A DNA stretch of 51,510 nt from Deltaproteobacteria bacterium (GTDB lineage Bacteria; Desulfobacterota; Binatia; UBA1149; JAJCZL01). The translations under genes and the position numbers were made by a program. Position 1 is the stretch's first letter; every line of letters begins with the position of its first letter. Shown here piece after piece: positions 531 through 51,058 of the stretch. The stretch covers positions 1 to 51,510 of the forward strand of contig JAJCZL010000075.1 of NCBI GenBank assembly GCA_029262415.1, given 5' to 3'. The notes under the pieces were generated by a model. The model was not told the origin of the DNA. It did not search any database and saw nothing but the letters and a program-made list of their open reading frames with translations.

Positions 531-557
531 CCCACGCGGATCAGCCGTCCGCGTGGG
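531..557 (+). other. Intercistronic hairpin before the Shine-Dalgarno
   Basis: A perfect 10-bp inverted repeat (CCCACGCGGA / TCCGCGTGGG) with a 7-nt loop sits between two paralogous Cys-rich genes, ending a few bases before the GGAGGGG ribosome-binding site of the gene at 577. It has no T-run, so it is not a classical terminator. It could be an mRNA processing or stability element, or a translational control hairpin. Confidence 0.5.
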
Positions 558-576
558 TTCGGAGGGGAATACGAAA

Positions 577-3500
577 ATGAAGCAAAGCAAAAACACAACG
601 CGCCGAATCCTCGGCATGCTCGTCGCGGCAGGACTCGTCCTGGCCACGGGCACCAACGCCTCGGCGTTCTTCGCGCAAGAAAACAGCTGCCTGAGCAAGC
701 TCGGCAAGGCGATCGCGAAGGTAAACAAGATCGCGTACAAAGCGCACGCCAAATGCCTGGACAAGGAGATCGCAGGGAAAGGCTCGCTGCCGTGCCCGAG
801 CGTGGCTGATGCCGTCAAGATCCAAAAGGCGATCGACAAAGCAATATCGGCGGGCGAGAAGAGCTGTGCCAGTACTTGCAGCGTCTCGGGCGTACCCTGC
901 GTAACCGATCGTACGTGCCCGCCTAATCTCGGTTCCGTCGAACTGTGCACCGGCGGTGTCAAGGGAATCCGCTTCGACATCGACAACATCGGCTTCCCCG
1001 GCCCGTTCTGCGAATCTGCGGTGTTTCTTAACCGCCCGATCGACACCGGCGCCGACCTCGGCGAGTGTGCGGGTCTGCTGGCCTCGGCGACCTCAACCAA
1101 CGCCATCAACGCAGTCTACGGCAACATTACTTCTGCCTCACTCATCAGCACCACTGCCGCAAAGTGCCTTGCGACGGCTTCCAAAGCCGTCGCCAAGCTG
1201 GTCAGTACCGCCGCCAAGGGCATCCTCAAGTGCCGCGACGCTGTTAACAAAGGCGGCGCCGGTATTGCCCTCACCGCGTGTGCTACGGACGATGCCAAAC
1301 TGGCAGCGAAAATAGCCAAAGCGGAGACCAAGCTCAGCGTTTTGATGGGCAAGAAATGCATCGACGACGACATAGCGGAACTCGAGCTTTGCAACGGCAC
1401 TGCAACCACCATCGCTGAAGCCGTGGCCTGCTTGACCGCGGGTGCGCGCGAAGTCGCCGAATCCGGTCTCCAATCTGCCGAGCGCAGCTTCTCGCCGGTC
1501 TCACTCGTCGAAGCCGCCTACCCGCCGACGCCTTCGTGCGGAGACGGCGTGGCAAACCAAGTACAAAACGCGTTCCAGTTGCTCGGTGAAGAGTGCGACG
1601 GCGACGACGATTCGGCTTGCCCCGGCGAGTGCGGAGCCGCGGGTGACATCTTCCAGTGCACCTGCCTGAACATCCCGCGTGCGCGCTCCTTCGCTGACGC
1701 CTCGACGTCCGACCTCGACAACGGCTGGACCGGTAAGAACCATAACTCCAACATCATGCACGGCGCCGGGTTCTTCACCGAGCGCCAGAACTGCGATTGT
1801 GACGCCTTCGACACGACCATCACCTGCAGCGGCGGCGCTCGCACCACCGTGTGCACAACCAACGCCGATTGCGAGTTGATCGACGAGGGAACCTGCACAC
1901 TGCGCAGCACAACGTGTACCGGAAGCAGTTCGGATCAGATCTGTGACACCCCGGGGGACACGCTTCCAGTTTGCGCGTTCAATCCCTCTGCGACCGTGAG
2001 TTGCGACCAGTTCGGCAACTTCAACGGGGAGAACACAGATGGCGACTGCACCTACTGCGACGCGTTCAACACCAATCCGTTTACCTCCTGCACCGACCCG
2101 AGCGATTGCCAAGCGCAGTGCTATGACGCCTTGGGAACTCCGGTTGGGCTGTGCGCCCAGCAGAGCGACTGCGGTGCAGGCGAGAGATGCCAAGGCACGT
2201 GTCTGGCCTCCGAGTGCTTGATCCTTCCCAACGGCGCGCCGATCCCGTTGTCAGCCGGTGGCACCGCGGTCTGCGTCATCACCACCTTCGTTGCCGACTC
2301 GGTCGGCACCCAAGACATCGTAACGGGCGACGCCGCAGTCTTCATAGACCAGAACTCGAAGGTGCATCTCGGACTCACCAACCAGGTCCCGTGCCCGGTT
2401 TGCGGAGGATTCTGTTCGAGCGGCGACCGGGTTGGCGATATCTGCGAAGGTACTTGCAGCACCAGCGGCGACGATTGCCGGTTCGACACCGACTGCCCAA
2501 GCGGTGAAACCTGCACCGACGTGTCGGCTGCATGCCCTAACGGCGTCTGTAACCTCAGCCTGATCTGCGGAGGTGGTGGCCTGGGCGGGCTCAATAACGG
2601 TCTGGGCTGCCGCATCGAGGCCGCGTCGGACGTATTCGGCACTGTCTCGAGCGACTGCCCGCCGGACAACAACATCTCGGGTAAGGGCCTTGCCATCAAG
2701 TTCTTCCCGTCAACGACCGGCGAGACGGCTCATGCCAACATCGAGCCGTGCGAAGCCCTTGGGGCTGAGAACTACCAATGCCCCTGCGTCGGCGGAGGCG
2801 TTCCGGGTCGGCCCGTTGCGCCCAACGACTGCACCGCGGTGTGTAACGCCGGGCCGGAGTTCGGTACCCCATGCGGATTCGGTACCGACAACAAAAACGG
2901 TTTCTCAACCGTGTGCGTGGGTGGGTCCAACCCCGGAACCAACTGCCAGACCGATGCGCACTGCAACGGCGGTACCTGTTCGGGCAACCCTACGCATTGC
3001 GTGGGCGAGATCGATCCCGAGTTTGCTTTCGATATCTGCACGACCAACGCCGACTGTAACATCGGTACCTGCGAGAACGCCTGTCCGAGCGGCCGTTGCA
3101 CTCAGCTGTGCCTGCCGGAGACCGATCCGTTCTTCGGCGCCCTTGGTGGAACCGATCCCACTGAAGGGCTTTGTGTGGTACGCGATCTGTTCCACTGCAG
3201 CGGCGAGAAGTTCCAATTCCTCACCTGCACGAGGGCAGATGCGGAAGCCGGCTGCAACGCAACGTGCAGCACATCGGGCACGCCGTGCAACGAACACTCG
3301 CAGTGCCCTTCAGGCGAAACCTGTACAGGTGATTGCGACGTCGCACGTCTGTGCGGTGCGGGTAGCGATAATGTGCTCGGCAACGCCAACGACCAGCCGG
3401 GCGGCGGCATCTGTGTGGTGGACAAGACGGCCTGTTACATTACCGATGTTGAGAACACCTGCACGGTACTCCCGGGCGACCCGGTCGGTTCAGGGCGATT

Positions 3501-3744
3501 CCCCTGTACTCTCGATACCGACTGCCCGGACTTCCCGACCCGTATCTGTGACGGTCCGGTTGCTGCCGCTGCCGGCGAAGGAATACCGAGCCCGACCAAC
3601 CCGCAAACGGTTGCGACGTTCTGCATTCCACGCACCAACAACAGTTCTGTGAATACGGTAGCGGGTCTCGGCGGACCGGGCCGCTTGACCCAAGACAACG
3701 TCGTGGTACCGAACTTCGACTGCCTCGGAGTGACGTGCCCCTGA
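577..3744 (+). CDS. Large secreted Cys-rich repeat protein
   Basis: A 1055-residue exported protein. The ATG at 577 is chosen over the GTG at 553 because GGAGGGG lies just upstream of it and because the signal peptide starts there (MKQSKNTTRR, a hydrophobic core LVAAGLVLA, then ASA cleavage). Residues about 35-300 form a Lys/Ala-rich helical region with sparse Cys pairs (KLGKAIAKVNK, AHAKCLDKEIAGK). From about 310 onward it is dominated by Cys repeats such as CTTNADC, CPSGETC and CGDGV..EECDGD. The C-terminus has TFCIPR..SSVN..AGLGGPGR, shared with the two paralogs. No enzyme motif is seen. Disulfide bonding is inferred and would fit the VKOR-DsbA gene at 13585. Probably a surface or extracellular structural or adhesive protein. 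Confidence 0.85.
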   Translation: MKQSKNTTRRILGMLVAAGLVLATGTNASAFFAQENSCLSKLGKAIAKVNKIAYKAHAKCLDKEIAGKGSLPCPSVADAVKIQKAIDKAISAGEKSCASTCSVSGVPCVTDRTCPPNLGSVELCTGGVKGIRFDIDNIGFPGPFCESAVFLNRPIDTGADLGECAGLLASATSTNAINAVYGNITSASLISTTAAKCLATASKAVAKLVSTAAKGILKCRDAVNKGGAGIALTACATDDAKLAAKIAKAETKLSVLMGKKCIDDDIAELELCNGTATTIAEAVACLTAGAREVAESGLQSAERSFSPVSLVEAAYPPTPSCGDGVANQVQNAFQLLGEECDGDDDSACPGECGAAGDIFQCTCLNIPRARSFADASTSDLDNGWTGKNHNSNIMHGAGFFTERQNCDCDAFDTTITCSGGARTTVCTTNADCELIDEGTCTLRSTTCTGSSSDQICDTPGDTLPVCAFNPSATVSCDQFGNFNGENTDGDCTYCDAFNTNPFTSCTDPSDCQAQCYDALGTPVGLCAQQSDCGAGERCQGTCLASECLILPNGAPIPLSAGGTAVCVITTFVADSVGTQDIVTGDAAVFIDQNSKVHLGLTNQVPCPVCGGFCSSGDRVGDICEGTCSTSGDDCRFDTDCPSGETCTDVSAACPNGVCNLSLICGGGGLGGLNNGLGCRIEAASDVFGTVSSDCPPDNNISGKGLAIKFFPSTTGETAHANIEPCEALGAENYQCPCVGGGVPGRPVAPNDCTAVCNAGPEFGTPCGFGTDNKNGFSTVCVGGSNPGTNCQTDAHCNGGTCSGNPTHCVGEIDPEFAFDICTTNADCNIGTCENACPSGRCTQLCLPETDPFFGALGGTDPTEGLCVVRDLFHCSGEKFQFLTCTRADAEAGCNATCSTSGTPCNEHSQCPSGETCTGDCDVARLCGAGSDNVLGNANDQPGGGICVVDKTACYITDVENTCTVLPGDPVGSGRFPCTLDTDCPDFPTRICDGPVAAAAGEGIPSPTNPQTVATFCIPRTNNSSVNTVAGLGGPGRLTQDNVVVPNFDCLGVTCP

Positions 3745-3870: not shown

Positions 3871-4929
3871 CTATTCGAGGTCTTCGGGAATGTCGGGGGC
3901 AAGCTCAACCTTACTCTGGTCTTCGACCGCAATGTCTTGCTGAATCTTCGCTTTGCGCGCCGCATCTTTGTCCGAGTAATCGGCGAGCTTGCGCATCTGA
4001 AAGACACCCTTGAACTCAAGCGAAATCGGGAACGGCGCGTTGGCAAGAGTCGCCTGCACATAGGTGCCGCCGATCTCATCAGTGCCGACTTCACGGAAAC
4101 CGTAGCCGGAGATCTGTTGGCCCGAGGCCCCCGACATCGGATTGGTGTTCTTAACCGTCACCATCGCAAACAGCGCATCGTTGACGTTGTCGTCAAGGCG
4201 CAACGATGAGTCGTACTCATCGTTGCTGACCACACGGTGCTCGCCTTTTACGAACAACGCCGGGTTGCGGTCGTCAAGTTTCCACCAGTTCTCCTTCAGG
4301 TCGTTGAATGCCGGGGCCGGAATCGTCCACGCCTCGCCTTTGCTCCTGGCCTTGTCCAGATCGGACTCGAACGGAAGCTGAAGGTCGAGATACGTCCAAC
4401 GCAGCGTTTCCTCAACAACCCGCGACTGACCGTCAACCTCGGCGACCTTGGGAACGTAGCGGATCTTGACGATATCGACATAGGTGTGTCTCAGCTTGGG
4501 CCGCCGCACCGTGAGGAGCAGTTCGGGCGTGCCCTTGTCCAAGGCTGCCTGGTAGCTCTTCATGCCATCGGCGGTAAGCTTATCGAGGTTGACTCGGGTG
4601 ATTATGTCACCTTCGAAGATCCCGTGGTTGTGGGCCACGCTTTGGTCGCTGACTTTAGCCACGACGACCCCATGGACGAACTCGCCGATCGAGTCCTGCA
4701 GTTCCTTGCTGATGGCACCGGCTTCAAACGGGATCCCGAGCGCTTCGCGGTCCAAGCGAACACGAAACTCGGGCATCACTCGGTGTTCAACCCACCAGAC
4801 TCCATCCAGATTGTGCCCGATGACACCTTCTAGAACCGTGCTTTGAAAGTAGGCGCCCGCTGCTGGGGCCAACGTCAGTGTGAAAATGATCGCGCCGAGA
4901 GTCCGTGCGCGCACTAGCCTGTGGCTCAT
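3871..4929 (-). CDS. Exported PDZ-domain protein of unknown function
   Basis: 352 residues. The ATG at 4929 is preferred because GGAGGT lies 4 nt upstream and because it opens a signal peptide (MSHRLVRARTLGAII..LAPAAGAYF). Residues about 60-125 look like a PDZ fold (GVVVAKVSDQSVAHNHGIFEGDIITRV), the type used to recognise peptide C-termini or to scaffold periplasmic proteases. The rest has no motif I recognise and no catalytic Ser/Lys/His set, so it is probably not itself a protease. The C-terminus is acidic. It is convergent with the Cys-rich gene and diverges from the lipoprotein gene at 5243. A periplasmic or surface adaptor role is possible but unproven. Confidence 0.75.
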   Translation of the reverse strand: MSHRLVRARTLGAIIFTLTLAPAAGAYFQSTVLEGVIGHNLDGVWWVEHRVMPEFRVRLDREALGIPFEAGAISKELQDSIGEFVHGVVVAKVSDQSVAHNHGIFEGDIITRVNLDKLTADGMKSYQAALDKGTPELLLTVRRPKLRHTYVDIVKIRYVPKVAEVDGQSRVVEETLRWTYLDLQLPFESDLDKARSKGEAWTIPAPAFNDLKENWWKLDDRNPALFVKGEHRVVSNDEYDSSLRLDDNVNDALFAMVTVKNTNPMSGASGQQISGYGFREVGTDEIGGTYVQATLANAPFPISLEFKGVFQMRKLADYSDKDAARKAKIQQDIAVEDQSKVELAPDIPEDLE

Positions 4930-5242
4930 GATACCTCCGATATGGGTGCTGGGCTCTTGATATTTGTCGTGGCGTGTGGCCAAGTGTCACTAGCCTACGA
5001 GGACCCCGCGAGGGGACAATCGTCAGAATACGCAGATCGAAAATCAAACTCTAACACCCAACACCGACGGGCCATGGGTAGACCCATTGAAATCACGGGA
5101 GTTAAGGCGCGAAGCTGCCCCATGTGAGCTTGACATGGGGCAGCAGTCGCGGCTAGTTTGGGAAAATCGCAGCCTGAGGGGAAGCCGCCTGCATGGCAGG
5201 TCAACTTCCACACTTCAGCGTTAAAAAGGAGACCTAAGCGCA
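4930..5242. promoter_or_regulatory. Divergent intergenic region with 12-bp hairpin
   Basis: This 313-bp spacer holds the 5' regions of the PDZ gene (minus) and a lipoprotein gene (plus). It contains a perfect inverted repeat, GCTGCCCCATGT (5114-5125) and ACATGGGGCAGC (5133-5144), with a 7-nt loop and no T-run. A smaller CCCC-GCGA-GGGG hairpin lies at 5004-5015. AAGGAG at about 5226 serves the gene at 5243. The large hairpin lies about 100 nt before the start codon, so it could be a 5' UTR regulatory element or an operator. No known riboswitch consensus was recognised. Confidence 0.5.
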
Positions 5243-6592
5243 ATGAGTAACCACATTACTCGCAAGTTTTTGGCGGGTGTTACCGCCCTCTCACTTGCAG
5301 CTTTCTACACAGGCTGCAGCAGCGGCGGCGGTGGCGCCACGTTTTTCTGGGGCATCCTCGGCACCGGAGCTAACACATGCTCGAGCGTAATCGTTCGCAT
5401 CGACCTGGCAGCAGCGGGCGCGACAGACGAACAGCTCAACTGCGCGAGAGCCGCTCTCATCGGCGCTGGTTGCACGGTAGACGAAGTTGAAGTTTCGCCG
5501 GGGAGCGGCATCTGGGATGTCACCATCAGCGGTTGTAACTTCTCCGATCTGAGCGACCTGTTCACCTGCACGGTCAACGGTGTTTCGGCATCAGACCTAG
5601 ATGAGTTCTCGGATATTGTCGGTGACAACTGCGGCGGCGGAACGCCTCCTCTCGCTGTCGACGACACCCCGGTGGTGACCACCACAACCACCACGCAGGC
5701 GCCGACGACAACCACGACGGCACCTCCGACCACAACCACAACCGTGTTCCCGGACACAACCACGACCACTGTCGGCGGCACCACGACGACGGTCCTCGGC
5801 ACCACGACGACGGTCCTCGCGACCACGACGACGCTCGGCGTGACCACGACGACGCTGGCCGGGGCGACCTTCGACGTCGTTTACGGCTTCGACTTCCCGA
5901 TGAGCACTGTTGGCGCTCTGCAGATCGACAGTGACTACTCGGGGGCGGGCGGTGAGTTTGACGGAACCGGGGCCAATGTCGCATGCGCCAAGGCTGCGGG
6001 TTTCACCGCACTCGAAGCGTTCAACGACAACGACACCGGTCAGGTTGTCTCGCAGGGCTTCGCCGATAGCGCCGGATTCGCGGCACCTCGTGTGCTTTCG
6101 ACCTGCCGCTTCGTCGACGCCGACGGCACGCCCCCGGCACCGAGCGCTTTCGTCAACACGACGGTCGACTGCTCGGATCTGAACTCCCAGCCGGTGAACT
6201 GCTTCACCAGCGTTCAAAGTGTCACGGCCTGCGCATGCGGCGACTCGACGGTCAACTGCGTCACCGAGAACTGTGACAACGGTGCGTCCTCAGCGACCAA
6301 CACCTGCGGTGACGGAACCGTTAACTGCAGTGCTTGCACCGACGAGCAGTGCGACGACGGCAACGCGACCGACGACGGCAACGGCTGCTCGGCCGACTGC
6401 CAGGACAACAGCACCTGCGGCAACAACATTGTTGAGTCCGCATTCGAGCAGTGCGATGACGGCGGTAGCTGCCAATTCGGTAGCAACCCCGGTGCTGCTT
6501 GCACGTTGCCTGCCGGTGCCGAGTGCACGGGCGGATTCTGTCAGACCCAGAGTGGCGACGGCTGCAGCAGCACCTGTCAGACTGAGCCGTAA
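5243..6592 (+). CDS. Lipoprotein with Thr-rich linker, cohesin-like module and Cys repeats
   Basis: 449 residues. The N-terminus has a lipoprotein-like signal with Cys at residue 25 (AAFYTGC). A roughly 110-residue N-terminal domain follows, then a Thr-rich linker (about 145-205, many TTTTT runs separated by AP or GG). Next is a module at about 208-310 containing TVGALQ and LSTCRF, shared with the lipoproteins at 9183, 9769 and 11095 and resembling a cohesin core. The C-terminus carries DEQCDDGN..GDG/NGCSADC repeats of the DUF4215 / myxococcal disulfide-repeat type. Thr-rich linkers of this kind are commonly O-glycosylated in surface proteins. AAGGAG precedes the start. A strong terminator at 6632 makes it a separate transcription unit. 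Likely surface exposed. Confidence 0.8.
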   Translation: MSNHITRKFLAGVTALSLAAFYTGCSSGGGGATFFWGILGTGANTCSSVIVRIDLAAAGATDEQLNCARAALIGAGCTVDEVEVSPGSGIWDVTISGCNFSDLSDLFTCTVNGVSASDLDEFSDIVGDNCGGGTPPLAVDDTPVVTTTTTTQAPTTTTTAPPTTTTTVFPDTTTTTVGGTTTTVLGTTTTVLATTTTLGVTTTTLAGATFDVVYGFDFPMSTVGALQIDSDYSGAGGEFDGTGANVACAKAAGFTALEAFNDNDTGQVVSQGFADSAGFAAPRVLSTCRFVDADGTPPAPSAFVNTTVDCSDLNSQPVNCFTSVQSVTACACGDSTVNCVTENCDNGASSATNTCGDGTVNCSACTDEQCDDGNATDDGNGCSADCQDNSTCGNNIVESAFEQCDDGGSCQFGSNPGAACTLPAGAECTGGFCQTQSGDGCSSTCQTEP

Positions 6593-6631
6593 GCCGAAAC
6601 GAATCGAAAGATTCAAGGCTAGCTGAAATAG

Positions 6632-6668
6632 CGGCCGGCCCGGGATTCCGGGCCGGCCGTTTTTTTTC
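6632..6668 (+). terminator. Rho-independent terminator
   Basis: A perfect 12-bp stem, CGGCCGGCCCGG (6632-6643) with CCGGGCCGGCCG (6648-6659), has a GATT loop and is followed directly by a run of nine T. It closes the lipoprotein gene that ends at 6592. Confidence 0.95.
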
Positions 6669-6723
6669 GCGTGAAGCTATTTCTCGACCCCTACTTCCAC
6701 TACCGGCAGCCGCGAAAACGCGT

Positions 6724-6746
6724 GTGCATTTGCAATGCACATTTTT
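6724..6746. terminator. Second small terminator-like hairpin
   Basis: GTGCATT (6724-6730) pairs with AATGCAC (6734-6740) around a 3-nt loop and is followed by ATTTTT. It is a back-up to the stronger terminator at 6632, or a separate short-RNA end. The 7-bp stem is weak. Confidence 0.5.
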
Positions 6747-6869
6747 AGAATTCGGTTTTTCGGCGCTAGCGACGGCCCAGATCGATCTCGCGACAGCCGC
6801 TTGACACCCAGCGGCAAGGAAAACCGGGGATTACCAGCTTGCGCTCCCCTGTTTTGTCGTCTATGTCCC

Positions 6870-6898
6870 TTGCCACGTCTGCATCGCTGGCATTAATA
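6870..6898 (+). promoter_or_regulatory. Possible sigma-70-type promoter for the gene at 6986
   Basis: TTGCCA (6870-6875) resembles a -35 box. TAATAT, an 18-nt spacer later at about 6894, resembles a -10 box. It lies about 90 nt before the ATG at 6986 and after both terminators. Between 6747 and 6869 I see nothing else supportable. Confidence 0.35.
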
Positions 6899-6985
6899 TG
6901 GTCGGTGAGCGTCACCAGGGGGGTCCTGTACGGATGTAAGTGCGCATGGTGCGCACACACCGCGGGCCATTTACGGAGGATTTGA

Positions 6986-8971
6986 ATGCCAAACTCGAAG
7001 ATTATTTCAGCCCTGACCGGACTCGCAGCTGCTGCGATGTTGGTCATCCCCGCCGCGGGTTTCGCGGCACAGGGCGACTGCGGACAACCGATATCGGACG
7101 GCTCTAACCCGACTGCAACCGACGCGAGCGTAACCTTGCGCTTTGCGGTGGGCGCCCTATCCGCGTGCAGCGACTTCGGCCCTGACTGCATCTGCGACGT
7201 TAACGACAGCGCCAGCACCACCGCGAGCGATGCGCTCCTCGTACTGCGCAAGGCGGTCGGCCAGCCCGTCACGCTTGACTGCGGTGCAGCCTGCACGACG
7301 ACGACGACTATATCGATAACGACAACGACGATAGGCGCGACCACGACCACCACGCTGCCACCCAATGGTGCTCCACGTTGCAGCTCCGGCGAAGTCATCG
7401 CCCTGGTGGGCGGCGTGATCGATTCCGGTTGGGCCGGACCGGGTCACAACCAAGACCTGATCAGCGGTGCGCGTATCAGCGCAAAAGCCGTGCGTCGCTG
7501 CGAGAACCTGACCACCGGGGCCCGTGGCGCTGTTTGTGTGCAGGACAGCGAATGCGCCGTCGGTACCGAACGCTGCCTGGTTGCTTGTAACTGTAACAAC
7601 CCGCAGGACTCGACGTGTGAGATCACCGGGCCTACCCACGAGCAGAACTGCACGATCACCCTCGATTCGTGCACCAGCGACGGCGACTGCGGTATATCGG
7701 GCGGAACCTGCAGAAGGTTCTTCGGCGGTCCGCTACCGTTGGCCGCGGCCGGAACCCCGGTTTGCGTCACCACGTATTTCGCGGGCGACATCAGCGGAAC
7801 AGCCGATGCGTTCAGCGGCGAACTCGTTGCCGACTTTGCGCTGCGATCGCGAGTGCACGCAACCAACATCGACCACCCCTGCCCGATTTGCGACACCGGC
7901 GGTACGCCGGCGGTCGGCGACACCGGTACGTGCGTAGGCGACTCGCAGAAGACGGGTTTGCCCTGCACGGTAACATCGATCCACCCCGAGTTCGGTGCTA
8001 CCTCACCGGATTGCCCGCCGCAGCCCGCCCAGAACGTGTCGGGCATCGGCCTGTCGGTTCTGTTCCGCGGGGCTACGACCAACACGGCGTCCAAACAGGC
8101 GACGCTCATCTGCTCGGATAACCCAATCCACCCTAACGGCCAGGTTGGAGGATTCTGCGCGGATGACGTCGCGGTTGGCGTATTCGACACACCGTGCTCG
8201 AGCAACGCCGATTGCTTGCATTGCACCGACGATCCTACTGTCGGTTGTACGACGAACGGCGACTGCGGTGCCGGTGGGGCCTGCGCTGCGGCCCCCGAGC
8301 AGCCCATCGCGTGCGGGTTCTACTGCCACGTCGGCTTCTGTAAGGGAGCCGGGCCACAGGATCCCGACCAGCCGTGCTTCGCCGATAGCGACTGCACGGG
8401 CGGCGATACCTGCGTGCCGGGCACCGGAGGCGCGACTTCCGCCAACGCCCCGCAGCAGTTGCCGAACGACTGCTCCAACACGATCTGTGGAGCAGAGTCG
8501 CCCGAACAGTGCGGATCCGGCGACACCCTGGGTGTGTGCGATGTGAAGACCTACATCCCGTGTACCGTCGACTCGCAGTGCACCCAGCAAGGCGCGGGCA
8601 CGGTCTGTAACTTCATTCCGAAACCCTGCTTCGAAGCGGTGATTTCGGCAACCGGCAGCCCGTCGCCGCTCGGCTCGTTCTGCTCGGAGCAGGACCCGCC
8701 GACCGTATGCACCACCAACGCCGACTGTGGCGGAACGTTGTGCCGCGACGATACGTCGGTACCGGGGGTGGTAGCCATCTTCCCGATCCCGGCAACCGCG
8801 TCTTCGGCAGTCAACGGCGCGGCCGGTCTGACCGGCCCGGGCCGCGTCAGCCTCTCACAGATCCTACTGGCCTGTCGCTGCGGCGACGGCACCGCGGGCT
8901 GCGACGAGGAGTGTGACGACGGCAACGACATCGACGGTGACGCGTGCACAAACGTTTGCACGCTGCCGTAG
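6986..8971 (+). CDS. Cys-rich secreted protein with N-terminal dockerin-like module
   Basis: 661 residues with GGAGG 7 nt before the ATG. A signal peptide ends near FAAQG. Residues about 31-98 hold two dockerin-like loops: a degenerate first one (SDGSNPTATDASVTLRFAVG) and a clearer second (CDVNDSASTTASDALLVLRK), ending GQPVTLDC. The same arrangement is intact in the protein at 49577-51058. A Thr-rich linker (about 101-128) follows. Residues 130-640 are homologous along their length to the Cys-rich protein at 577, with shared blocks such as IDSGW/LDNGW, PVCVTTYFAGD, SPDCPPQP..SGIGLSV and AGLTGPGR. The end is a DEECDDGND..GDAC repeat. Probably an extracellular disulfide-bonded protein that could dock through its N-terminal module. 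Confidence 0.85.
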   Translation: MPNSKIISALTGLAAAAMLVIPAAGFAAQGDCGQPISDGSNPTATDASVTLRFAVGALSACSDFGPDCICDVNDSASTTASDALLVLRKAVGQPVTLDCGAACTTTTTISITTTTIGATTTTTLPPNGAPRCSSGEVIALVGGVIDSGWAGPGHNQDLISGARISAKAVRRCENLTTGARGAVCVQDSECAVGTERCLVACNCNNPQDSTCEITGPTHEQNCTITLDSCTSDGDCGISGGTCRRFFGGPLPLAAAGTPVCVTTYFAGDISGTADAFSGELVADFALRSRVHATNIDHPCPICDTGGTPAVGDTGTCVGDSQKTGLPCTVTSIHPEFGATSPDCPPQPAQNVSGIGLSVLFRGATTNTASKQATLICSDNPIHPNGQVGGFCADDVAVGVFDTPCSSNADCLHCTDDPTVGCTTNGDCGAGGACAAAPEQPIACGFYCHVGFCKGAGPQDPDQPCFADSDCTGGDTCVPGTGGATSANAPQQLPNDCSNTICGAESPEQCGSGDTLGVCDVKTYIPCTVDSQCTQQGAGTVCNFIPKPCFEAVISATGSPSPLGSFCSEQDPPTVCTTNADCGGTLCRDDTSVPGVVAIFPIPATASSAVNGAAGLTGPGRVSLSQILLACRCGDGTAGCDEECDDGNDIDGDACTNVCTLP

Positions 8972-9007
8972 TAACAGCGACGAGTGGGCTGCGGCCCACC
9001 GCATAAA

Positions 9008-9051
9008 TAAACGGCCCGGCCCTCGTAAGAGGGCCGGGCCGTTTATCTTTT
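9008..9051 (+). terminator. Very strong rho-independent terminator
   Basis: A perfect 17-bp stem (9008-9024 with 9029-9045; core ACGGCCCGGCCCTC) with a GTAA loop is followed by TCTTTT. It ends the Cys-rich gene at 8971. Its arms start with TAAA and end with TTTA, so it can act in both directions. Confidence 0.95.
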
Positions 9052-9182
9052 CCCCGGCTTGGTCTCGGCCGCGCACGGCTGGATGCTCCCCGGCCCCACC
9101 GCGGGCTAGCGCCTCGGGCGCTTTCGGCCTAGAATCGCTGGGTTGTGTGGCTTACCGAGAGATTGAAAAAAATGGTATCTGA

Positions 9183-9749
9183 ATGACCAAGCCTCTGAGT
9201 ATCCTGGTGGCTACCGTGGTGTTCGCCTGCCTTACCACAATCACGGCCTGCGGCCCCAGCTTGGGTGACCAAAAGCGCTACACACTGACCGTTGAGTTGG
9301 CTGCCAACGGTGGCCAGAGCATCGGTGGGCTGGTTCTCAAGATCACCTATGACAACGGCGAGATCTGCGGTACTGGTGGAAGCGTCTCATGCGTGCGCGG
9401 CGGTGACGTTGACAGCGCCGTGCTCGACGACGAAGAAGATGTGGTAGACAGCAACGTGTTCATCTTAAATGCCCAGATCGACAAAAGCGCGGTGATGAAC
9501 GTCGGCGACGACCTCCTCACCTGCACCTTCGTGTCTTCGGTTACGCCGTCTAACAATAGCTTTGTCTTCAAAATTCAAAGTGCGACCGACACCGGCGATG
9601 CGACCATCCCTACCGCCGACCTCGAGACCGTAAGGTTCATGGTGCGCTCGGATGACGGCACCGCGGGCGACTGCACTGGGACCACCGGCGCGACCACGAC
9701 CACGACCTCGATCGTGACCGCAACCAGTACCACGATGGGTCTGCCCTGA
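9183..9749 (+). CDS. Small lipoprotein with a single cohesin-like module
   Basis: 188 residues. The signal has a canonical lipobox, ITAC, with Cys at residue 23. Residues about 35-150 are one beta-rich module: YTLTVELAANG, SIGGLVLKITYDNG, and LLTCTF near its end. That order matches cohesin cores, in which a G-x-L-x-F/L strand is followed by Y-D and a late hydrophobic-T-x-F strand. The same module is in the lipoproteins at 5243, 9769 and 11095. The C-terminus is a short Thr tail (GATTTTTS). No strong Shine-Dalgarno is visible. It is 19 nt from the next lipoprotein and probably co-transcribed with it. The cohesin assignment is by pattern only. Confidence 0.75.
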   Translation: MTKPLSILVATVVFACLTTITACGPSLGDQKRYTLTVELAANGGQSIGGLVLKITYDNGEICGTGGSVSCVRGGDVDSAVLDDEEDVVDSNVFILNAQIDKSAVMNVGDDLLTCTFVSSVTPSNNSFVFKIQSATDTGDATIPTADLETVRFMVRSDDGTAGDCTGTTGATTTTTSIVTATSTTMGLP

Positions 9750-9768
9750 CCGCTTGCGAGGCTCCGCC

Positions 9769-11010
9769 ATGCGAATAAACTCCAGCCTCATCTACGCAAT
9801 CGCGACCGCAGCTGTTCTTTGCCTGGCCACGGGGTGCGTAGGCAACTCGGCAACACCGGTCGACGTTGTCATCCAGTTGCCGGGTCCGGCGCAGACGCTG
9901 TCGAAGGCCGTAATTGAGGTCGACTACTCGCGTTCGGGCGCGGTACCGGCCGGTGGGCGCAGGCCTTCGTGTACGGCGCTGCTCCCATATCTGGACGCGA
10001 CCTTCAGCGACGACGGCCGCAACCGGCTGATCATCGACGTGAGTTCCCCGCAGGGGTTCTCCGCCCCCGCCGATCTCGTCGCCTGCCGGATGCTCGCGAG
10101 TAAGGGCAACGAAGACGCCGGCCGCATCCAATCGCGGCTGGCGGTGCGTGTCGACAGCGCCTTGGACATGGCCGGCCAAGCGGTCGGCGACAAGCGGCTC
10201 GCAGGTTTGTCCTCACGGATCCAGACCCGCGCCGACCGCCACGCGCCCCGAGAGGAAGCCGGGAAGTCCTCACAACAGCGGCGCAACGCCCGCAGCGCAG
10301 AGTCACGCGAGCGCGGAGCAAGCGCTGATCAAGCCGCCACAGAGCGCGCAAGCGCGAGCGGCGTGCGCGAGTTGCGCCCCAGCGGACGTCCGGCAGCGGC
10401 ACCCGAGGGGCGACCGGCTGGACGCATCGCAAGTGCAGCCGCGGATACCGGCGCCGCAGCAACAGCCGAGCGCTCGCGTGCAGGCTCGCCTCGCGATGCC
10501 GTGCGCGATGCGGTCGCCGGGGCAGCCCGAGCCAACGCACCCTCCGGAGGCGGCCCGCTGGATGACGGCGCTTCGGCCGCCGATTCTGGGTTGGGCCGGG
10601 CCAACACCGAAATCCCCTCCGGCGTCGTCCCCAATGTCGGTCCCACGTATAGCTACGAAATCACCCTGTCGGTACTCAACGACTCGGGCGAACTCGGGGC
10701 TTTGCAGGTTGACGTCAGCAACAGCAGTGGCGGCGGCTTCGTCGGCAACGGCGATTCGGTCGATTGCACAAGCTTGCTGGGCGGTGCTCTGGTCGCCTTT
10801 AACAACCGCGACGGCAAGCTGCGCGCGGGGTTCATCGCGACCAACGGCATCGCCACCCCCACCCCGATCGCCTCGTGCCGGTACAAATCGCGCACCGACG
10901 TCACCTCTGGGTCTTTCAGCGTGGCGGTCACCGACTCCAGCGACACCAACAGTCAGCCGGCCAGTCCTACTCCATTTGTCGCGGTCAGCGACGTGCAGTT
11001 GATACGCTAG
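9769..11010 (+). CDS. Lipoprotein with two cohesin-like modules and Ala/Arg-rich spacer
   Basis: 413 residues from the ATG at 9769, which has GCGAGG 6 nt upstream; a TTG at 9754 is the alternative. The signal ends CLATGC with Cys at residue 23. A divergent first module (about 28-140, with SKAVIEVDYS and LVACRM) is followed by an unusual low-complexity spacer (about 145-285) rich in Ala, Arg, Ser and Glu. A clear second module (about 293-400) has GELGALQVDVS, ALVAFNNRDG, IASCRY and GSFSVAVTDSSD. The spacer is very GC-rich and open in several frames. The second module is most like the one at 11095. Probably surface anchored; binding partners unknown. Confidence 0.75.
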   Translation: MRINSSLIYAIATAAVLCLATGCVGNSATPVDVVIQLPGPAQTLSKAVIEVDYSRSGAVPAGGRRPSCTALLPYLDATFSDDGRNRLIIDVSSPQGFSAPADLVACRMLASKGNEDAGRIQSRLAVRVDSALDMAGQAVGDKRLAGLSSRIQTRADRHAPREEAGKSSQQRRNARSAESRERGASADQAATERASASGVRELRPSGRPAAAPEGRPAGRIASAAADTGAAATAERSRAGSPRDAVRDAVAGAARANAPSGGGPLDDGASAADSGLGRANTEIPSGVVPNVGPTYSYEITLSVLNDSGELGALQVDVSNSSGGGFVGNGDSVDCTSLLGGALVAFNNRDGKLRAGFIATNGIATPTPIASCRYKSRTDVTSGSFSVAVTDSSDTNSQPASPTPFVAVSDVQLIR

Positions 11011-11094
11011 CCCGCGCTTCTGTACCTTCGGCCCCGGCGCGGCTATAAATGACGGCGGGCGCCGCGCCGGCGGGCGCTCTCAGGAGTTTTACGC

Positions 11095-11628
11095 ATGGTA
11101 GATTACCTCCGTCTTCTAGACACGCGGCTTTGTCTACGCGCGACAATCACCGCCGTCGCCACGCTCGCGTTGATGTCCGCCGCTGGGTGCCAATCATCGG
11201 GCACTCCGACCTCGAGCGGTGACGCCGGCTTGACCACAGCGGCGACCGCTACAGAGCCCAAAGGCGACGCCTACTTGCTTACACTCAACGTCTCGAGCAA
11301 TTCGGGCAGAATCGGAGCACTTCAGTTCGAGATCAAAGGTGATGTCGGCGGCTTTGCCGGCGGCGGTGCCGAGGTCGAGTGCGACAGCATGATAGACGAG
11401 GCTTTGGCCGCCTTCAGCCGTCACGAGCCCACGCGCGTCGTCGGTGCGGTAATTGATGTCGCAGGCTTTGACACACCGGCGGCGGTCGCGCGTTGCACCT
11501 ACGTCGCCGAGTCCGAGCCGGGCGCAGGCGCGTTCTCGGTCAAGGTCACCGAAGCAAGCGATGTCAGTGCACAAGCGCTCGCCTCGGCACCGACGATGGT
11601 CGTCAGCAGCATCCAGCGCGCTGAGTAG
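11095..11628 (+). CDS. Small lipoprotein with cohesin-like module
   Basis: 177 residues. GGAG lies 8 nt before the ATG. The signal ends LMSAAGC with Cys at residue 32, followed by a Ser/Thr-rich stretch. The module at about 58-170 has RIGALQFEIKGDVGGF, VECDS, ALAAFSRH, VARCTYV and GAFSVKVTEASD. It aligns closely with the second module of the preceding lipoprotein. Two conserved Cys (VxC and AxCxY) could form a disulfide. A TATAAAT box lies at 11044-11050, but its -35 partner is unclear. The gene runs directly into the next (membrane/TPR) gene and is probably co-transcribed with it. Confidence 0.75.
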   Translation: MVDYLRLLDTRLCLRATITAVATLALMSAAGCQSSGTPTSSGDAGLTTAATATEPKGDAYLLTLNVSSNSGRIGALQFEIKGDVGGFAGGGAEVECDSMIDEALAAFSRHEPTRVVGAVIDVAGFDTPAAVARCTYVAESEPGAGAFSVKVTEASDVSAQALASAPTMVVSSIQRAE

Positions 11629-11638
11629 AGCCGGCGGC

Positions 11639-13540
11639 TTGCCGCAGCAAGGCCGGATACGCGCGAACGTCCACGCCGCCGTCACCGCAGCGATCGTCGT
11701 TTTGAGCTTTGCCGCGTTCGGCCGCGGCATTCCGAGCAGCTTCGTCTCCGATGACACCAACGCGATCCTCGCCAACCAGTACGTAACAGCAAACGCATCG
11801 ACGGCCCGCATCTTTGCAAACTACTCTTGGTGGGGTGCCCAGCGGGCCGACGCACGCGGCTACCGCCCGCTGACAACGTGGACGTTCGCACGTAACTACC
11901 AATCGTTCGGCGCGATCCCCGCCCCGTTCCACGTCATCAATATTCTCATTCACATCGGCGTTTGCGTCGCCGTTTATGCGCTTGCTCTAGCGCTCGGCAT
12001 CACGCAACCGGCAGCCGCGTTCTCGGCGGCAATGTTTGCCGTCATGCCGATCCACAGCGAAGCGGTGGTGTGGGCGGTGGGACGTGCCGAGTTGCTTGCC
12101 GCGTTGGGTTTTCTCGGCTGCCTACTGGCCGGGCTGCGCGTCATGCGCGGTGGCCACGTGGTTTGGGCGGTCTTGTCGGCTGCAGCCCTGCTGCTCGGCG
12201 CTTTCTCCAAGGAGAACGCCGTCACCGCCCTTGCGGGCCCCTTCATCGCCTATATCTGGATCGGCCGGTCACCCGACCTCGGCCCCAAGGCCTCTGCCCG
12301 CCAACCGTCGAAAGCCCAGGCACGAAGCCGCGCGGCCATATGGTTCGCAGCGCTTTGCCTGGGACTCGGCGTCTATCTGCTGATCCGCGCTGCGGCCGGC
12401 GAGATGATCGGCGGCACGGCGGCTAATCAGTTGGACAACCCCATCGGCTTACTGCCGTGGCTGCAACGCCAGGCCGCCGCGCTCGCGGTTTTCGGGCGCT
12501 ATCTGTGGCTCTCGCTAGTACCGTTGGGACTGAGCGTCGACTATTCATTCGATGCTCTCGGCGTCGGCAGCGGCACCCACAGCGGCTTTTTCGCCGACCG
12601 TTACAGCCTGCTCGGTGCGCTCGGCGTGGCCGCGGCAAGTACTGCCGCGCTGGCGGGGCTGCGTGCGCAGAGGTGGGCCGCGCTCGCGGCAGCAACCGTG
12701 TTGTCACTGGCCGCGTTCTCGATCGTCTCCAACACTGTCGTGGTGATCGGCACGGCAATGGGCGAGAGGCTCTTCTATCTCCCCAGCTTCGGACTTTGCA
12801 TCGCGGGCGGGCTGTTGTTCGGCGCAGCTCGCGAACGAGTACCCAAAGCGGCGGTGATCGTCGCCGTACTCGTCATACTCACCTACACCGGCGCATCCGC
12901 CGTTCGTTGCGGCGACTGGCAAAGCCCGATCACGCTGTTCGAAGCGGCGGTCGCCGCCCATCCACGCAGTGCGCGTGCGCATATGGAGTTGGCATCTGCA
13001 TACGGCCACGCCGGTGCGAGCGACGCAGCCTTACAACACTTCGGGCTCGCGCTTTTGATCAAACCTGATTACGCGGCAGCGGCATACAACAGAGGCAACA
13101 TGCTCGCGCGCGTCGGCCGTTACCCCGAGGCCGCACAGTCTTATGAATCTGCAGTGTCGGCCAAACCCCGCTGGTACTCGGCTGTCTACAACCTCGCGCT
13201 CGTCAAACGTCTCCAAGGCGACGACGCAGGCGCACTCGAGGTACTCGAAAAACTTGAATCGGGGTCACGACCGGCTGCAATCGAAATGCTGCGCGGTGAG
13301 ATTCTCCTTGCCGACGGACGCAACAGCGAGGCGATCGAAGCCTTTACCCTTGCGCTTTCGGCCGGCGCCGAGTCGAGCACGGCGCTGATCAACCGCGGTG
13401 TGGCCCGCGAGAGACTGAGCGGCTGCGCCGCCGCGCTCGAGGATTACGACAAGGCCGCCGGCCAACCGGGAGCCGCGCCCCAGGCCGCGCAGAACGCGGC
13501 CGCATGCCGACGGGTGCTCGGCCTAAGCGGCGACCCTTAG
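11639..13540 (+). CDS. TMTC-like GT-C membrane protein with C-terminal TPRs
   Basis: 633 residues from a TTG at 11639. An upstream ATG at 11453 would add a Ser/Arg-rich segment overlapping the previous gene and is unlikely. The N-terminal half has about ten hydrophobic segments and the hallmark order of the TMTC/DUF1736 family: SFVSDDTNAILANQYV, YRPLTTWTF, FHVINILIH, FAVMPIHSEAVVWAVGRAEL and FSKENAV. The SDD near the first membrane segment is where GT-C enzymes carry their catalytic acid. The last 200 residues are TPRs (ARAHMELASAYGHAG, AAAYNRGNMLARVGRY). Eukaryotic TMTC proteins O-mannosylate secreted beta-domains; this bacterial member is uncharacterised. Its place after Thr-rich lipoproteins suggests it may glycosylate them, which is inference. 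Confidence 0.8.
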   Translation: MPQQGRIRANVHAAVTAAIVVLSFAAFGRGIPSSFVSDDTNAILANQYVTANASTARIFANYSWWGAQRADARGYRPLTTWTFARNYQSFGAIPAPFHVINILIHIGVCVAVYALALALGITQPAAAFSAAMFAVMPIHSEAVVWAVGRAELLAALGFLGCLLAGLRVMRGGHVVWAVLSAAALLLGAFSKENAVTALAGPFIAYIWIGRSPDLGPKASARQPSKAQARSRAAIWFAALCLGLGVYLLIRAAAGEMIGGTAANQLDNPIGLLPWLQRQAAALAVFGRYLWLSLVPLGLSVDYSFDALGVGSGTHSGFFADRYSLLGALGVAAASTAALAGLRAQRWAALAAATVLSLAAFSIVSNTVVVIGTAMGERLFYLPSFGLCIAGGLLFGAARERVPKAAVIVAVLVILTYTGASAVRCGDWQSPITLFEAAVAAHPRSARAHMELASAYGHAGASDAALQHFGLALLIKPDYAAAAYNRGNMLARVGRYPEAAQSYESAVSAKPRWYSAVYNLALVKRLQGDDAGALEVLEKLESGSRPAAIEMLRGEILLADGRNSEAIEAFTLALSAGAESSTALINRGVARERLSGCAAALEDYDKAAGQPGAAPQAAQNAAACRRVLGLSGDP

Positions 13541-13584: not shown

Positions 13585-14883
13585 GTGGCCCCGCCAAACC
13601 AAGGCTCAGCAGAAGCCGGTCACACGCGGGCCCGGCTGCGATTGTCTCGGCTGCTGATCGCAGCAGCAGTGGTTGCGTGCATCGGCTTGGCGGTCTCGCT
13701 CGAGATCGTCTATGTCCACGGGCGGATCTCTGCGCTCGGCAAAGAGTACACCAGTTTTTGCAACGTAAATGACACGATCAACTGCGACCGTGTCCTGGGC
13801 AGCCCGTTCTCCAAGCTCTTCGGCATCCCGGTGGGGTGGTTCGCCCTGGCGACCTATGCATTCCTGGCAGCCGCTTTCTGGACCGCGCGTAACCGTATAG
13901 GCGAAGCCGCCGCCGCCAACCTGACCCTGGCCGGACTCGGCGTTGCCGGAGCCGGCGCATTCTCGGTGTACATGGCCGGGATCAGCTATTTCGAGGTTCA
14001 CGCGGTCTGCCTGCTGTGTTCGGGGCTCTATGCCGTAGCCGCAACTCTTGTCGGGCTGATGATCGCGATCATCGCGGCGTTCAGAACAGCGTGGCCGCGC
14101 TTGGGCCCGATGGTCTCGATCGGCGGCTTCGCGGGCGCATTGGTGTTCTCGGGCTTGGCCGTAGCAGGCCTGGCCTGGGCGACTTGGCCGAGCGTCGCAA
14201 CACTCGATGCCTCGTTGGTCACGCTCGAGGACGTGCGCAAGGCTGACCCGGATTTCTACACCTGGTACACCAACCACAGGGTCGTGGATCCAGGAGTTGC
14301 CGATCGCAACGCGATCGGCGCCGCAGGCGCCGCGGTAACGATCGTCGAGTACGCAGATCTGCAGTGCGGTCACTGTCGTAAGAGCCACGAGAAGCTAAAA
14401 GGGCTGCTCGAGCGTCGTCCTGATGAGATCCGCCTGGTTTATCGACACTTTCCGCTCGACGTCGCGTGCAACGAAGCGGTCAAGCAAACCATCCACCGCT
14501 TCGCCTGTCGTGCCGCTGAGGCCGCAGAGTGCTCCGCTCTGCAGGGTAGGTTCGCCGAGATGCTTGATCGTCTGTTCGCCAAACAGAACGTCTTGTTTGA
14601 CACCACCATCATGCGCATCGCCACCGACCTCGGTCTGGATATGGAGAAGTTCGCAGGCTGCATGGCCTCAGGCGAAATGCGCAAACACATCACCGAGGAC
14701 TCACGCTGGGGCAAAAAGCTCGAAATCAAATCTACCCCAACGCTGTTCTTCAACGGACGTGAGATCAAAGGCTCGTTTGATGCAGACGCCAACTACGACT
14801 ACGCGGTCTTGATCGAGGCCGGCCTGGCCGCGGCCGGCGCAGGTACAGAAGCTGCAGCAACTACCGCAGTGGTCGACAACTAA
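13585..14883 (+). CDS. VKOR-DsbA fusion, disulfide bond formation
   Basis: 432 residues with a GTG start. The N-terminal half is a four- or five-helix vitamin K epoxide reductase domain with the loop pair Cys59/Cys67 (FCNVNDTINC) and the active CLLC at 142-145. The C-terminal half is a DsbA-type thioredoxin fold: active site CGHC at 261-264 (YADLQCGHC), helix YRHFPLD, and cis-Pro segment KSTPTLFFNG. In such fusions VKOR passes electrons from the thioredoxin domain to quinone and so drives disulfide formation in exported proteins. It lies 44 nt after the TMTC-like gene and within a cluster of very Cys-rich exported proteins, which are its obvious candidate clients. All key Cys are present. Confidence 0.93.
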   Translation: MAPPNQGSAEAGHTRARLRLSRLLIAAAVVACIGLAVSLEIVYVHGRISALGKEYTSFCNVNDTINCDRVLGSPFSKLFGIPVGWFALATYAFLAAAFWTARNRIGEAAAANLTLAGLGVAGAGAFSVYMAGISYFEVHAVCLLCSGLYAVAATLVGLMIAIIAAFRTAWPRLGPMVSIGGFAGALVFSGLAVAGLAWATWPSVATLDASLVTLEDVRKADPDFYTWYTNHRVVDPGVADRNAIGAAGAAVTIVEYADLQCGHCRKSHEKLKGLLERRPDEIRLVYRHFPLDVACNEAVKQTIHRFACRAAEAAECSALQGRFAEMLDRLFAKQNVLFDTTIMRIATDLGLDMEKFAGCMASGEMRKHITEDSRWGKKLEIKSTPTLFFNGREIKGSFDADANYDYAVLIEAGLAAAGAGTEAAATTAVVDN

Positions 14884-49576: not shown

Positions 49577-51058
49577 CTAGGTCAGACAGATCAGCGTCAC
49601 CGGTTGCCCCACTCCGAACTGCAACACCAGCAGCGCGTCGGTCGCGTTGATCGCACCGGTACTGTTGACGTCACAGATACTCAATGGACAGCTGCCGGAG
49701 CCGACACCGGTGTTGAGCGTGATCAACGCATCAGTCGAGGTGCGGTTACCGTCGCCATTGGCATCCCCACACAGAGCTACGCCCGGTGTCTCGAAGACGC
49801 GTGCGAAGATTCCGGCGTCGTCACCGTCTTGGTAGCCGAAGCCGTGCCAGGTAACCACGAACTTTCCCGGGCCGAGGTTCGCTACGTCGGGGAAGGATTG
49901 GAATCCAGTAGTGAACTGATTGGCCTGAAACTGCGTGCCGACAGGAACTCCTAAGGCGGTGAATTGACGGACGGCTACCTCGGAGGCCGCAGCACCACCT
50001 CCTGATGCGTTATCAAACCAAGTGACGACGAAACCGCCGGCATCAGCCGCAACAGCCGGGGCTCCCTGATAGCCGACGGTGTTCGCGTTGACACGAAACT
50101 CGGTGCCGACTTTGGAGTTATTTTCGTTGATCCGTTGGCCGAAGATGCCGTTCGCGTCGCCGTCTTGCCCGAAGCTTTCCCATACGACAATGAACGAGTT
50201 GTCAGCCTGTGCCGCGACCGAGGCGAGCGCCTGATCGCCTGTGGTATAGGTGTTGACCAGATACTGTCCCGATCGAACTGTGAAATTCCCGTCGAACGCC
50301 ACAGCGAAGATCCCATAGCTGCCGCTGTCGCGCGTACCGTCGGTGTAGGCGACCAAGAAACTGTCGTTCGCAGCAACTGACACCGACGGTCGGGTTTGGA
50401 TTAACGGCGCCGGCGGGGTGATGAACTTCTCGCCGCCTAGCGGTTGCAACGAAGCGTCGTATCGACGCCCGGCGATGAAGACCTGGTCTTGAAGGCCGCC
50501 GGGCCCATAAAAAGTAGTCTCGTTGTGCCAAACCACGACGAAGCCGCCATCGGGTGCCGGTGCAACATCGGGAAATCCGGTCTTACCAACGGTGTAGGTG
50601 TTGACCAAGAACTCAGTGCCGATCGGAACGCCGTTGGCAGCAAACGCCTGTGCATGAATACCCGAGAGATTGCCGTCCAGACAGCAATCGGATTCATACA
50701 CCACAACAAAGCGCCCATCGTCGAGCACCGCAACGTCGGGGAAACGACGAAACGACAACCGTTCGGTGTTGGCCGTAAGCTCGCCGTCCTGCCGAACGCC
50801 GGCGCCGTTAAAGCGCTGCGCTCCGATGTTGGCTCCGTACTGTCCGCCTATCACACTGTCATCGCGCCACACGACCACGAAGTCGCCGTTTGAGCGGCCG
50901 GCAACGTCGACCGAGATTTGCTTGCCGGCGGCGGTGGTGTTGACTTGAAACTCGTCTCCGAGCGCAACCAGCGGGGTTTGCGCGGCCGACGTCGACGCCC
51001 AAAAGAACGACGCAAGGCACGCGACGACCAGTGTTCGAGATGTCGCCCGGGAGATCAC
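49577..51058 (-). CDS. Secreted propeller-like repeat protein with C-terminal dockerin-like module
   Basis: 493 residues, GTG start without clear ribosome-binding site. The signal peptide ends ASTSAAQTP. Residues about 30-425 are six or seven repeats of about 60 residues following E-F-x-VNT-x-T-x-G-x-(6)-P-x-VA-x(4)-G-F-VV-x-W, often with DGD(A/D)xGIFxxR; this is a beta-propeller or beta-sheet repeat type. The last 64 residues hold two calcium-loop/helix units: DANGDGNRTSTDALITL and DVNSTGAINATDALLVL, bracketed by Cys, ending GQPVTLIC. The D-x-N-x-D-G-(5)-D spacing matches dockerin loops. It could attach to the cohesin-like lipoproteins of the first region. Confidence 0.85.
   Translation of the reverse strand: MISRATSRTLVVACLASFFWASTSAAQTPLVALGDEFQVNTTAAGKQISVDVAGRSNGDFVVVWRDDSVIGGQYGANIGAQRFNGAGVRQDGELTANTERLSFRRFPDVAVLDDGRFVVVYESDCCLDGNLSGIHAQAFAANGVPIGTEFLVNTYTVGKTGFPDVAPAPDGGFVVVWHNETTFYGPGGLQDQVFIAGRRYDASLQPLGGEKFITPPAPLIQTRPSVSVAANDSFLVAYTDGTRDSGSYGIFAVAFDGNFTVRSGQYLVNTYTTGDQALASVAAQADNSFIVVWESFGQDGDANGIFGQRINENNSKVGTEFRVNANTVGYQGAPAVAADAGGFVVTWFDNASGGGAAASEVAVRQFTALGVPVGTQFQANQFTTGFQSFPDVANLGPGKFVVTWHGFGYQDGDDAGIFARVFETPGVALCGDANGDGNRTSTDALITLNTGVGSGSCPLSICDVNSTGAINATDALLVLQFGVGQPVTLICLT

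Follow-up and report, generated by a model that had tools for sequence, protein, structure and literature searches.

A divergent cohesin-like module on predicted lipoproteins and its predicted dockerin partners in an order of Candidatus Binatia

Introduction

Cohesins are the socket half of a plug-and-socket pair in which dockerins are the plug, and the pair is best known from cellulose-digesting bacteria. Several complexes outside cellulose degradation have been predicted from genomes, including the 'Planctosome' proposed for freshwater Planctomycetes, a non-cellulosomal cohesin/dockerin complex with secreted peptidases at the cell surface (PMC6461901), and a non-cellulosomal dockerin-peptidase complex at the surface of Ca. 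Stygibacter (PMC8542988). The cohesin/dockerin adhesins of syntrophic sulfate reducers provide another precedent (PMC10553843), and true cohesins that are missed by the Pfam profile PF00963 and recognised by AlphaFold have already been reported in Ruminococcus (PMC11557425). The main genome survey of the Binatota mentions neither cohesins nor dockerins (PMC8262859), and none of the papers searched links Binatia and cohesin. Here we analysed contig JAJCZL010000075.1 (C75; 51,510 nucleotides, hereafter the window) from a 3.9-Mb assembly of 83 contigs of a member of Candidatus Binatia. In the window, four neighbouring genes for predicted lipoproteins carry five copies of a module that we place in the cohesin superfamily, as a highly divergent branch, and they enclose a gene for a secreted dockerin protein.

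Results

Five copies of one module in four predicted lipoproteins

The four open reading frames (ORFs) and the dockerin gene located between the first and the second of them occupy positions 5243-11628 on the plus strand, with gaps of 393, 211, 19, and 84 bases between the five genes. The module-bearing genes and the modules are as follows, with the independent E-value (iE) of each copy in a hidden Markov model (HMM) built from 85 modules of other genomes and none of the window's genome.

5243-6592, plus strand: cohesin-like predicted lipoprotein, 449 aa, with an N-terminal domain, a Thr-rich linker, one module, and C-terminal Cys-rich myxo_disulf repeats
5861-6196, plus strand: module copy 1 (iE 4.2e-24)
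9183-9749, plus strand: small cohesin-like predicted lipoprotein, 188 aa, holding the module at 9267-9656
9267-9656, plus strand: module copy 2, the most divergent (iE 1.3e-11)
9769-11010, plus strand: two-module cohesin-like predicted lipoprotein, 413 aa, in which a low-complexity linker joins the modules
9844-10170, plus strand: module copy 3 (iE 7e-20)
10645-11007, plus strand: module copy 4, the copy that was modelled with AlphaFold (iE 5.2e-33)
11095-11628, plus strand: small cohesin-like predicted lipoprotein, 177 aa, holding the module at 11266-11625
11266-11625, plus strand: module copy 5 (iE 1.5e-27)

An earlier note, made from the letters of the window, had placed five copies of one module in the ORFs starting at 5243, 9183, 9769, and 11095, and both the shuffle tests and the independent HMM bore this out at those positions. 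The module is approximately 120 aa long. Pairwise Smith-Waterman comparisons, each evaluated against 1000 shuffles, gave the highest score for copies 4 and 5 (z = 33), the pair that the note had singled out as closest, followed by copies 1 and 4 (16), 1 and 5 (12), 2 and 5 (12), and 1 and 3 (9.5); for copies 2 and 3, the two most divergent, no likeness was detectable in this comparison (z = 0.3). The independent HMM matched all five copies with iE values from 5e-33 to 1e-11, compared with 0.75 for the top match among 800 shuffled proteins. A possible sixth copy, the N-terminal domain of the 5243 protein, was rejected: in comparisons with four of the copies it scored no higher than shuffled sequence, and its match to copy 3 was weak (p 0.035).

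The true shared signature of the module is a pair of invariant cysteines (C41 and C78 in copy 4), present in 85 of the 85 training modules and probably joined by a disulfide bond. The marks listed in the note held in part: a late cysteine followed by an aromatic residue occurs in four of the five copies and is replaced by LVACRM in copy 3, which also lacks GALQ. Lipobox-like motifs were observed in the 5243 protein (FYTGC, with a non-standard Tyr at -3) and in the 11095 protein (SAAGC). An in-frame TTG at 9754 precedes the 9769 ORF.

Predicted cohesin fold and remote homology to PF00963-type cohesins

The AlphaFold model of copy 4, based on a 15-sequence alignment of modules from the window and from genome contigs, consists of eight strands and has a predicted local distance difference test score (pLDDT) of 97.1 and a predicted template modelling score of 0.89. 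The first eight Foldseek matches of this model are cohesins, the best being 2xdh (E 0.010, probability 1.00), and in VIA-align 50 of the 50 PDB entries among the matches listed are cohesins (Z 11.3 to 7.0). The best structural match is again 2xdh, a non-cellulosomal cohesin of Archaeoglobus fulgidus, with Z 11.3 and 2.1 A over 102 residues at 9% identity; across the structural alignments, the module and the cohesins have approximately 6-17% sequence identity. The cohesin-like strand order proposed in the note is thus corroborated by the model, as is the cohesin fold, although the nine strands that it had anticipated are not all present. The hhalign alignment starts at column 22 of the cohesin profile and the structural match at approximately residue 18 of type I cohesins, indicating that the missing strand is cohesin beta-1, and several modules have no room for it upstream; in the 9183 protein, only about five residues separate the predicted lipid-bearing cysteine from the module.

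A comparison with PF00963, also suggested in the note, gave a divided result. The PF00963 HMM matched none of the window proteins, nothing in the whole genome, and none of 42 modules, no Pfam or NCBIfam entry named the module, and PDB-sequence searches with a single protein and with a profile gave no match. In contrast, a profile-profile alignment by hhalign of the module family against 18 PF00963-positive cohesins of the same class yielded a probability of 95.5% (P 1.4e-8, 112 columns), and the reversed, column-shuffled, and dockerin controls all remained below 1%. Since the direct search fails, the note had seen in the letters what Pfam does not. Cysteines occur at the corresponding places in many PF00963-type cohesins of the class, and a bridge lipoprotein from another order (L112:14577-16904, minus strand) matches both PF00963 (3.6e-7) and the new module profile (3e-4). 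Based on the predicted fold, the profile-profile homology, the corresponding cysteines, and the bridge lipoprotein, we regard the module as a divergent, previously unrecognised branch of the cohesin superfamily rather than as a member of PF00963.

Distribution and co-occurrence with dockerins

The module was found in all 13 genomes of the window's order, in 3-30 copies each. In a survey of 148 genomes of the class, which gave 4-30 modules for each of the 13, the only occurrences outside this order were one or two weak copies in two families, and a draw of 395 genomes from the phylum added only two further genomes with weak matches. A profile scan of public genome contigs with a narrow module alignment returned three loci, and the same kind of scan with a single window module as the query returned no match. 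In one family of the class (f9; e.g., L033, L034, and L035), dockerins are not enriched, and one or two weak modules are accompanied by Cys-rich relatives of the 6986 protein (the dockerin protein described below); this may be an earlier or a reduced state of the system.

All 13 genomes of the order are rich in dockerins (4-28 per genome at E <= 1e-3), these counts being slightly low given that the counting HMM misses a dockerin in L071 that was seen with another dockerin HMM and with BLAST. No cohesin above the PF00963 cut-off was detected in the 13 genomes. Among the other orders examined, PF00963 cohesins occur in all 7 dockerin-rich genomes, compared with 3 of the 38 that are poor in dockerins (Fisher p 2.6e-6, a value that ignores shared ancestry, the outside dockerin-rich genomes falling in five families). 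Within the window's order, the numbers of dockerins and modules correlate (rho 0.72). It looks as if, in one lineage, the cohesin partner was either replaced or diverged beyond recognition.

Modules and dockerins are also associated at the level of gene clusters and single polypeptides. In the window's genome, a dockerin lies within 2 kb of 9 of the 16 module proteins, compared with a mean of 0.42 and a maximum of 5 in 20000 random placements. Proteins containing both domains include scaffoldin- or adaptor-like architectures such as COH-COH-DOC-COH and COH-COH-COH-COH-DOC, where COH is the module and DOC the dockerin. A C-terminal DOC-COH tandem with a short linker recurs in secreted proteins (L072, L076, L077, L078, L079, L082, L085, L086, and L103); such a tandem would allow docked proteins to form chains or the dockerin to be capped. 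Of 47 cohesin-only proteins, 35 have a lipobox-like motif ahead of the first domain, versus 9 of 56 dockerin-bearing proteins; these counts are rough, since the choice of start codons was mechanical and the loci had been selected through hits. The lipobox and architecture numbers match a division of roles in which cohesin proteins are the anchors, proteins with both domains the adaptors, and dockerin proteins the cargo.

Dockerin proteins of the window and their cargo domains

The dockerin-like proteins that the note had reported in the window were recovered at two places, one inside the cohesin-like gene cluster and one near the end of the contig.

6986-8971, plus strand: secreted dockerin protein, 661 aa, with a signal peptide, an N-terminal dockerin, a Thr-rich linker, a Cys-rich region, and a C-terminal DUF4215/myxo_disulf repeat
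7070-7261, plus strand: dockerin of the 6986 protein (residues 29-92), whose first loop, CGQPISDGSNPTATDA, is non-canonical and whose second, CDVNDSASTTASDA, is canonical
49577-51058, minus strand: second dockerin protein of the window, with its dockerin at 49607-49777 (PF00404 24.7 bits, above the cut-off of 22.9)

The dockerin of the 6986 protein has no Pfam match but scores iE 1e-12 with an HMM built from dockerins of the window's genome. Orthologues of this protein, roughly 37-50% identical over their length across families, lie beside cohesin-like genes and are more conserved than the lipoproteins. The altered first loop (CGQPxSxGxxPxASDA) recurs in most of them; we speculate that it may restrict the dockerin to one binding orientation and to a partner of its own. 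An AlphaFold model of the 6986 protein from four sequences reached a pLDDT of 33.

A Pfam scan of 28 dockerin-bearing proteins of the window's genome assigned cargo domains of the subtilase type (two proteins), the reprolysin-type metallopeptidase (one), and a glucose/sorbosone dehydrogenase-like protein (one). Others of the 28 contain a beta-propeller, TSP3, or Cys-rich repeats, and for most of the set no domain could be assigned. A glycoside hydrolase was found in none of the 28, and thus the placement of dockerins on plant-cell-wall hydrolases that defines a cellulosome was not seen in this set. The cargo therefore agrees with the suggestion of the note that the system is not related to cellulose.

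A syntenic gene block across four families

The cluster belongs to a block that reaches far beyond 5243-11628 and is syntenic across four families of the order. Its genes run in the order Cys-rich protein, opposite-strand PDZ protein, cohesin lipoprotein, dockerin protein, small, two-module, and again small cohesin lipoproteins, TMTC-like protein, VKOR/DsbA-like protein and, further on, S41 peptidase. In a genome of the window's family (G001), order and orientation are the same, gene for gene, over the stretch compared. The block is kept without the last small lipoprotein in G003, G005, G009, and G011, with the dockerin gene duplicated in G003; parts of it are present up to the contig ends in G002, G004, G006, G007, G010, and G012, and the G008 contig starts inside the two-module gene. 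In G011 (L098:6376-7659, minus strand), the two-module gene is split by an in-frame stop between the modules, leaving ORFs of 309 and 115 aa.

In the module tree, copy 3 is placed within a clade (support 100/100) of first modules from the two-module proteins of nine genomes in all four families, and copy 2 clusters with the small lipoproteins that occupy its position in other families (98/97), showing that positions in the block retain their own kinds of module. This is as expected if the modules have distinct partners.

The other genes of the block in the window are as follows.

553-3744, plus strand: protein of 1063 aa, secreted and Cys-rich, conserved as the first member of the block
3871-4983, minus strand: PDZ-domain protein (PDZ E 2.5e-4, below the Pfam cut-off; synteny)
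11639-13540, plus strand: TMTC-like GT-C membrane protein with TPR repeats (TPR matches, DD and YRP motifs, synteny)
13585-14883, plus strand: VKOR and DsbA-type thioredoxin fusion, a candidate disulfide catalyst (NCBIfam matches to VKOR, 4.8e-10, and thioredoxin-like, 6.3e-17, neither reaching its curated cut-off; synteny)
15598-18282, plus strand: S41 C-terminal-processing peptidase with PDZ (NCBIfam prc 1.9e-66; synteny)

The proteins at 553-3744 and 6986-8971 are large, Cys-rich, and of no known fold, and they have segments in common. The frame of the TMTC-like gene is open from 11453, its true start probably lying near 11639. The protein carries FVSDD and YRPL in the first loop, together with hydrophobic segments and C-terminal TPRs, in agreement with the first-loop DD and YRP motifs described for TMTCs (PMC7801869); its match to PF08409 (E 0.14) is below the cut-off. 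Wherever a contig of the order extends that far, the gene directly follows the cohesin lipoproteins, and its product may glycosylate the beta-sandwich modules. The VKOR/DsbA-type fusion adjoins a cluster of very Cys-rich exported proteins and keeps this neighbourhood in other genomes of the order. The S41 peptidase is long, prc_long_Delta-like, and conserved at the block's end.

Discussion

A candidate non-cellulosomal docking system

We consider it likely that the divergent cohesins replace ordinary cohesins as dockerin receptors in this order, and that the anchored cohesins thereby capture secreted dockerin proteins in a docking system of a non-cellulosomal kind. The 5243, 9183, 9769, and 11095 proteins would be exported as envelope lipoproteins and placed at the surface, and the 6986 protein, once secreted, would be held there by the binding of its N-terminal dockerin to one or more of their modules. 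Other secreted proteins, bearing a dockerin alone or together with modules, would dock onto the same modules or onto one another's, so that anchors, adaptors, and cargo could assemble into a surface complex. In this scheme the VKOR/DsbA-like oxidase would form disulfides, the TMTC-like enzyme would glycosylate some exported beta-sandwiches, and the cargo would consist of peptidases, propellers, a sugar-dehydrogenase-like protein, and Cys-rich proteins rather than cellulases.

Several observations weigh against this interpretation. The module lacks cohesin beta-1 and has eight instead of the nine strands of PF00963, the PF00963 HMM does not detect it, and the Foldseek E-values are modest (0.01). 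The dockerin encoded within the cluster has a non-canonical first calcium loop and no Pfam match. As the order represents one evolutionary event, the Fisher values exaggerate how independent the genomes are, and the architecture counts come from loci that had been selected for a module or dockerin hit. The export of the lipoproteins, their exposure at the surface, the disulfide bond, and the part played by the TMTC-like gene are predictions from sequence.

The loss of beta-1 and of PF00963 similarity would also suit modules that have kept the cohesin fold and no longer bind dockerins, acting instead as structural, adhesive, or glycan-binding sandwiches at the surface and co-occurring with dockerins because both decorate the secretome. 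A fold by itself shows no function, and in many cases the module protein is a small lipoprotein that contains little beyond the module. However, modules adjoin dockerins far beyond chance in the window's genome, the two share scaffoldin-like polypeptides, the same lipoprotein-dockerin pair is syntenic across families, and no other recognised cohesin exists in the order for its 4-28 dockerins per genome, making a non-binding module unlikely in our judgement. An origin from an unrelated Ig- or CBM-like sandwich, with the resemblance to cohesins convergent, could be argued from the Foldseek E-value of no better than 0.01 and from the approximately 6-17% identity in structural alignments; we reject it as very improbable, given the significant profile-profile homology to the class's own cohesins with clean controls, the matching places of the Cys pair, and the cohesin identity of all 50 listed structural entries.

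The DOC-COH tandems raise a different alternative, namely that the pair acts within one chain, the module capping or stabilising its own dockerin like cellulosomal X-modules, with the stand-alone lipoproteins doing something else. The direct succession of DOC and COH in many secreted proteins and the clustering of several such modules in the tree (98/96) are in line with it. In the conserved cluster, however, different proteins carry the modules and the dockerin, and many dockerin proteins are without a module of their own, so that we find this explanation quite improbable. Docking between chains remains the interpretation that we prefer. Many secreted proteins hold a dockerin plus at least one module, and such chains could polymerise. 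On this basis one might picture an order-specific docking machine in which dockerin and module proteins polymerise on the lipoprotein anchors into a surface matrix displaying peptidases and Cys-rich proteins, served by a dedicated disulfide oxidase and by TMTC-type glycosylation of the modules, as eukaryotic TMTCs act on cadherin domains; we offer this extension tentatively and think it doubtful as a whole.

What is new here is a divergent cohesin family together with an order-wide conserved, non-cellulosomal cohesin-dockerin cluster. The family adds to the cohesins missed by standard profiles, and counts based on PF00963 underestimate such systems. It may explain the partners of many 'orphan' dockerins in an uncultured order, and it provides a case in which, within one class, dockerins were kept while the recognised cohesin was replaced by a diverged one. 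The role of cohesin-dockerin pairs outside cellulosomes thereby becomes directly testable, and the small, probably disulfide-stabilised modules could be a source of new orthogonal pairs for protein assembly.

Comparison with known systems

The module has the same beta-sandwich as type I cohesins and the A. fulgidus cohesin 2xdh and, as in the latter case, occurs with dockerins outside cellulose degradation. It differs from them in its sequence (9% identity to 2xdh), in escaping detection by PF00963, in the absence of the first strand, in its invariant Cys pair, and in its location on lipoproteins. The PF00963 cohesins of other Binatia orders are related to it by profile-profile homology, many of them have the Cys pair at the same places, and one (the bridge lipoprotein L112:14577-16904) is likewise carried by a lipoprotein; in contrast to the module, they retain the first strand and PF00963 similarity, and they occur where the module is rare or absent.

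At the level of the whole system, the cellulosome offers a similar apparent organisation of anchored cohesins, adaptors with multiple cohesins and a dockerin, and dockerin-bearing cargo, whereas no glycoside hydrolase was found in the 28 dockerin proteins scanned in the window's genome. The 'Planctosome' and the Ca. Stygibacter complex resemble the system described here in their peptidase cargo (M12B and S8 types) and in being predicted as non-cellulosomal. Both, however, have recognisable cohesins and large scaffolds, whereas the Binatia system features small lipoprotein anchors, a conserved gene cluster, and a dedicated Cys-rich dockerin protein.

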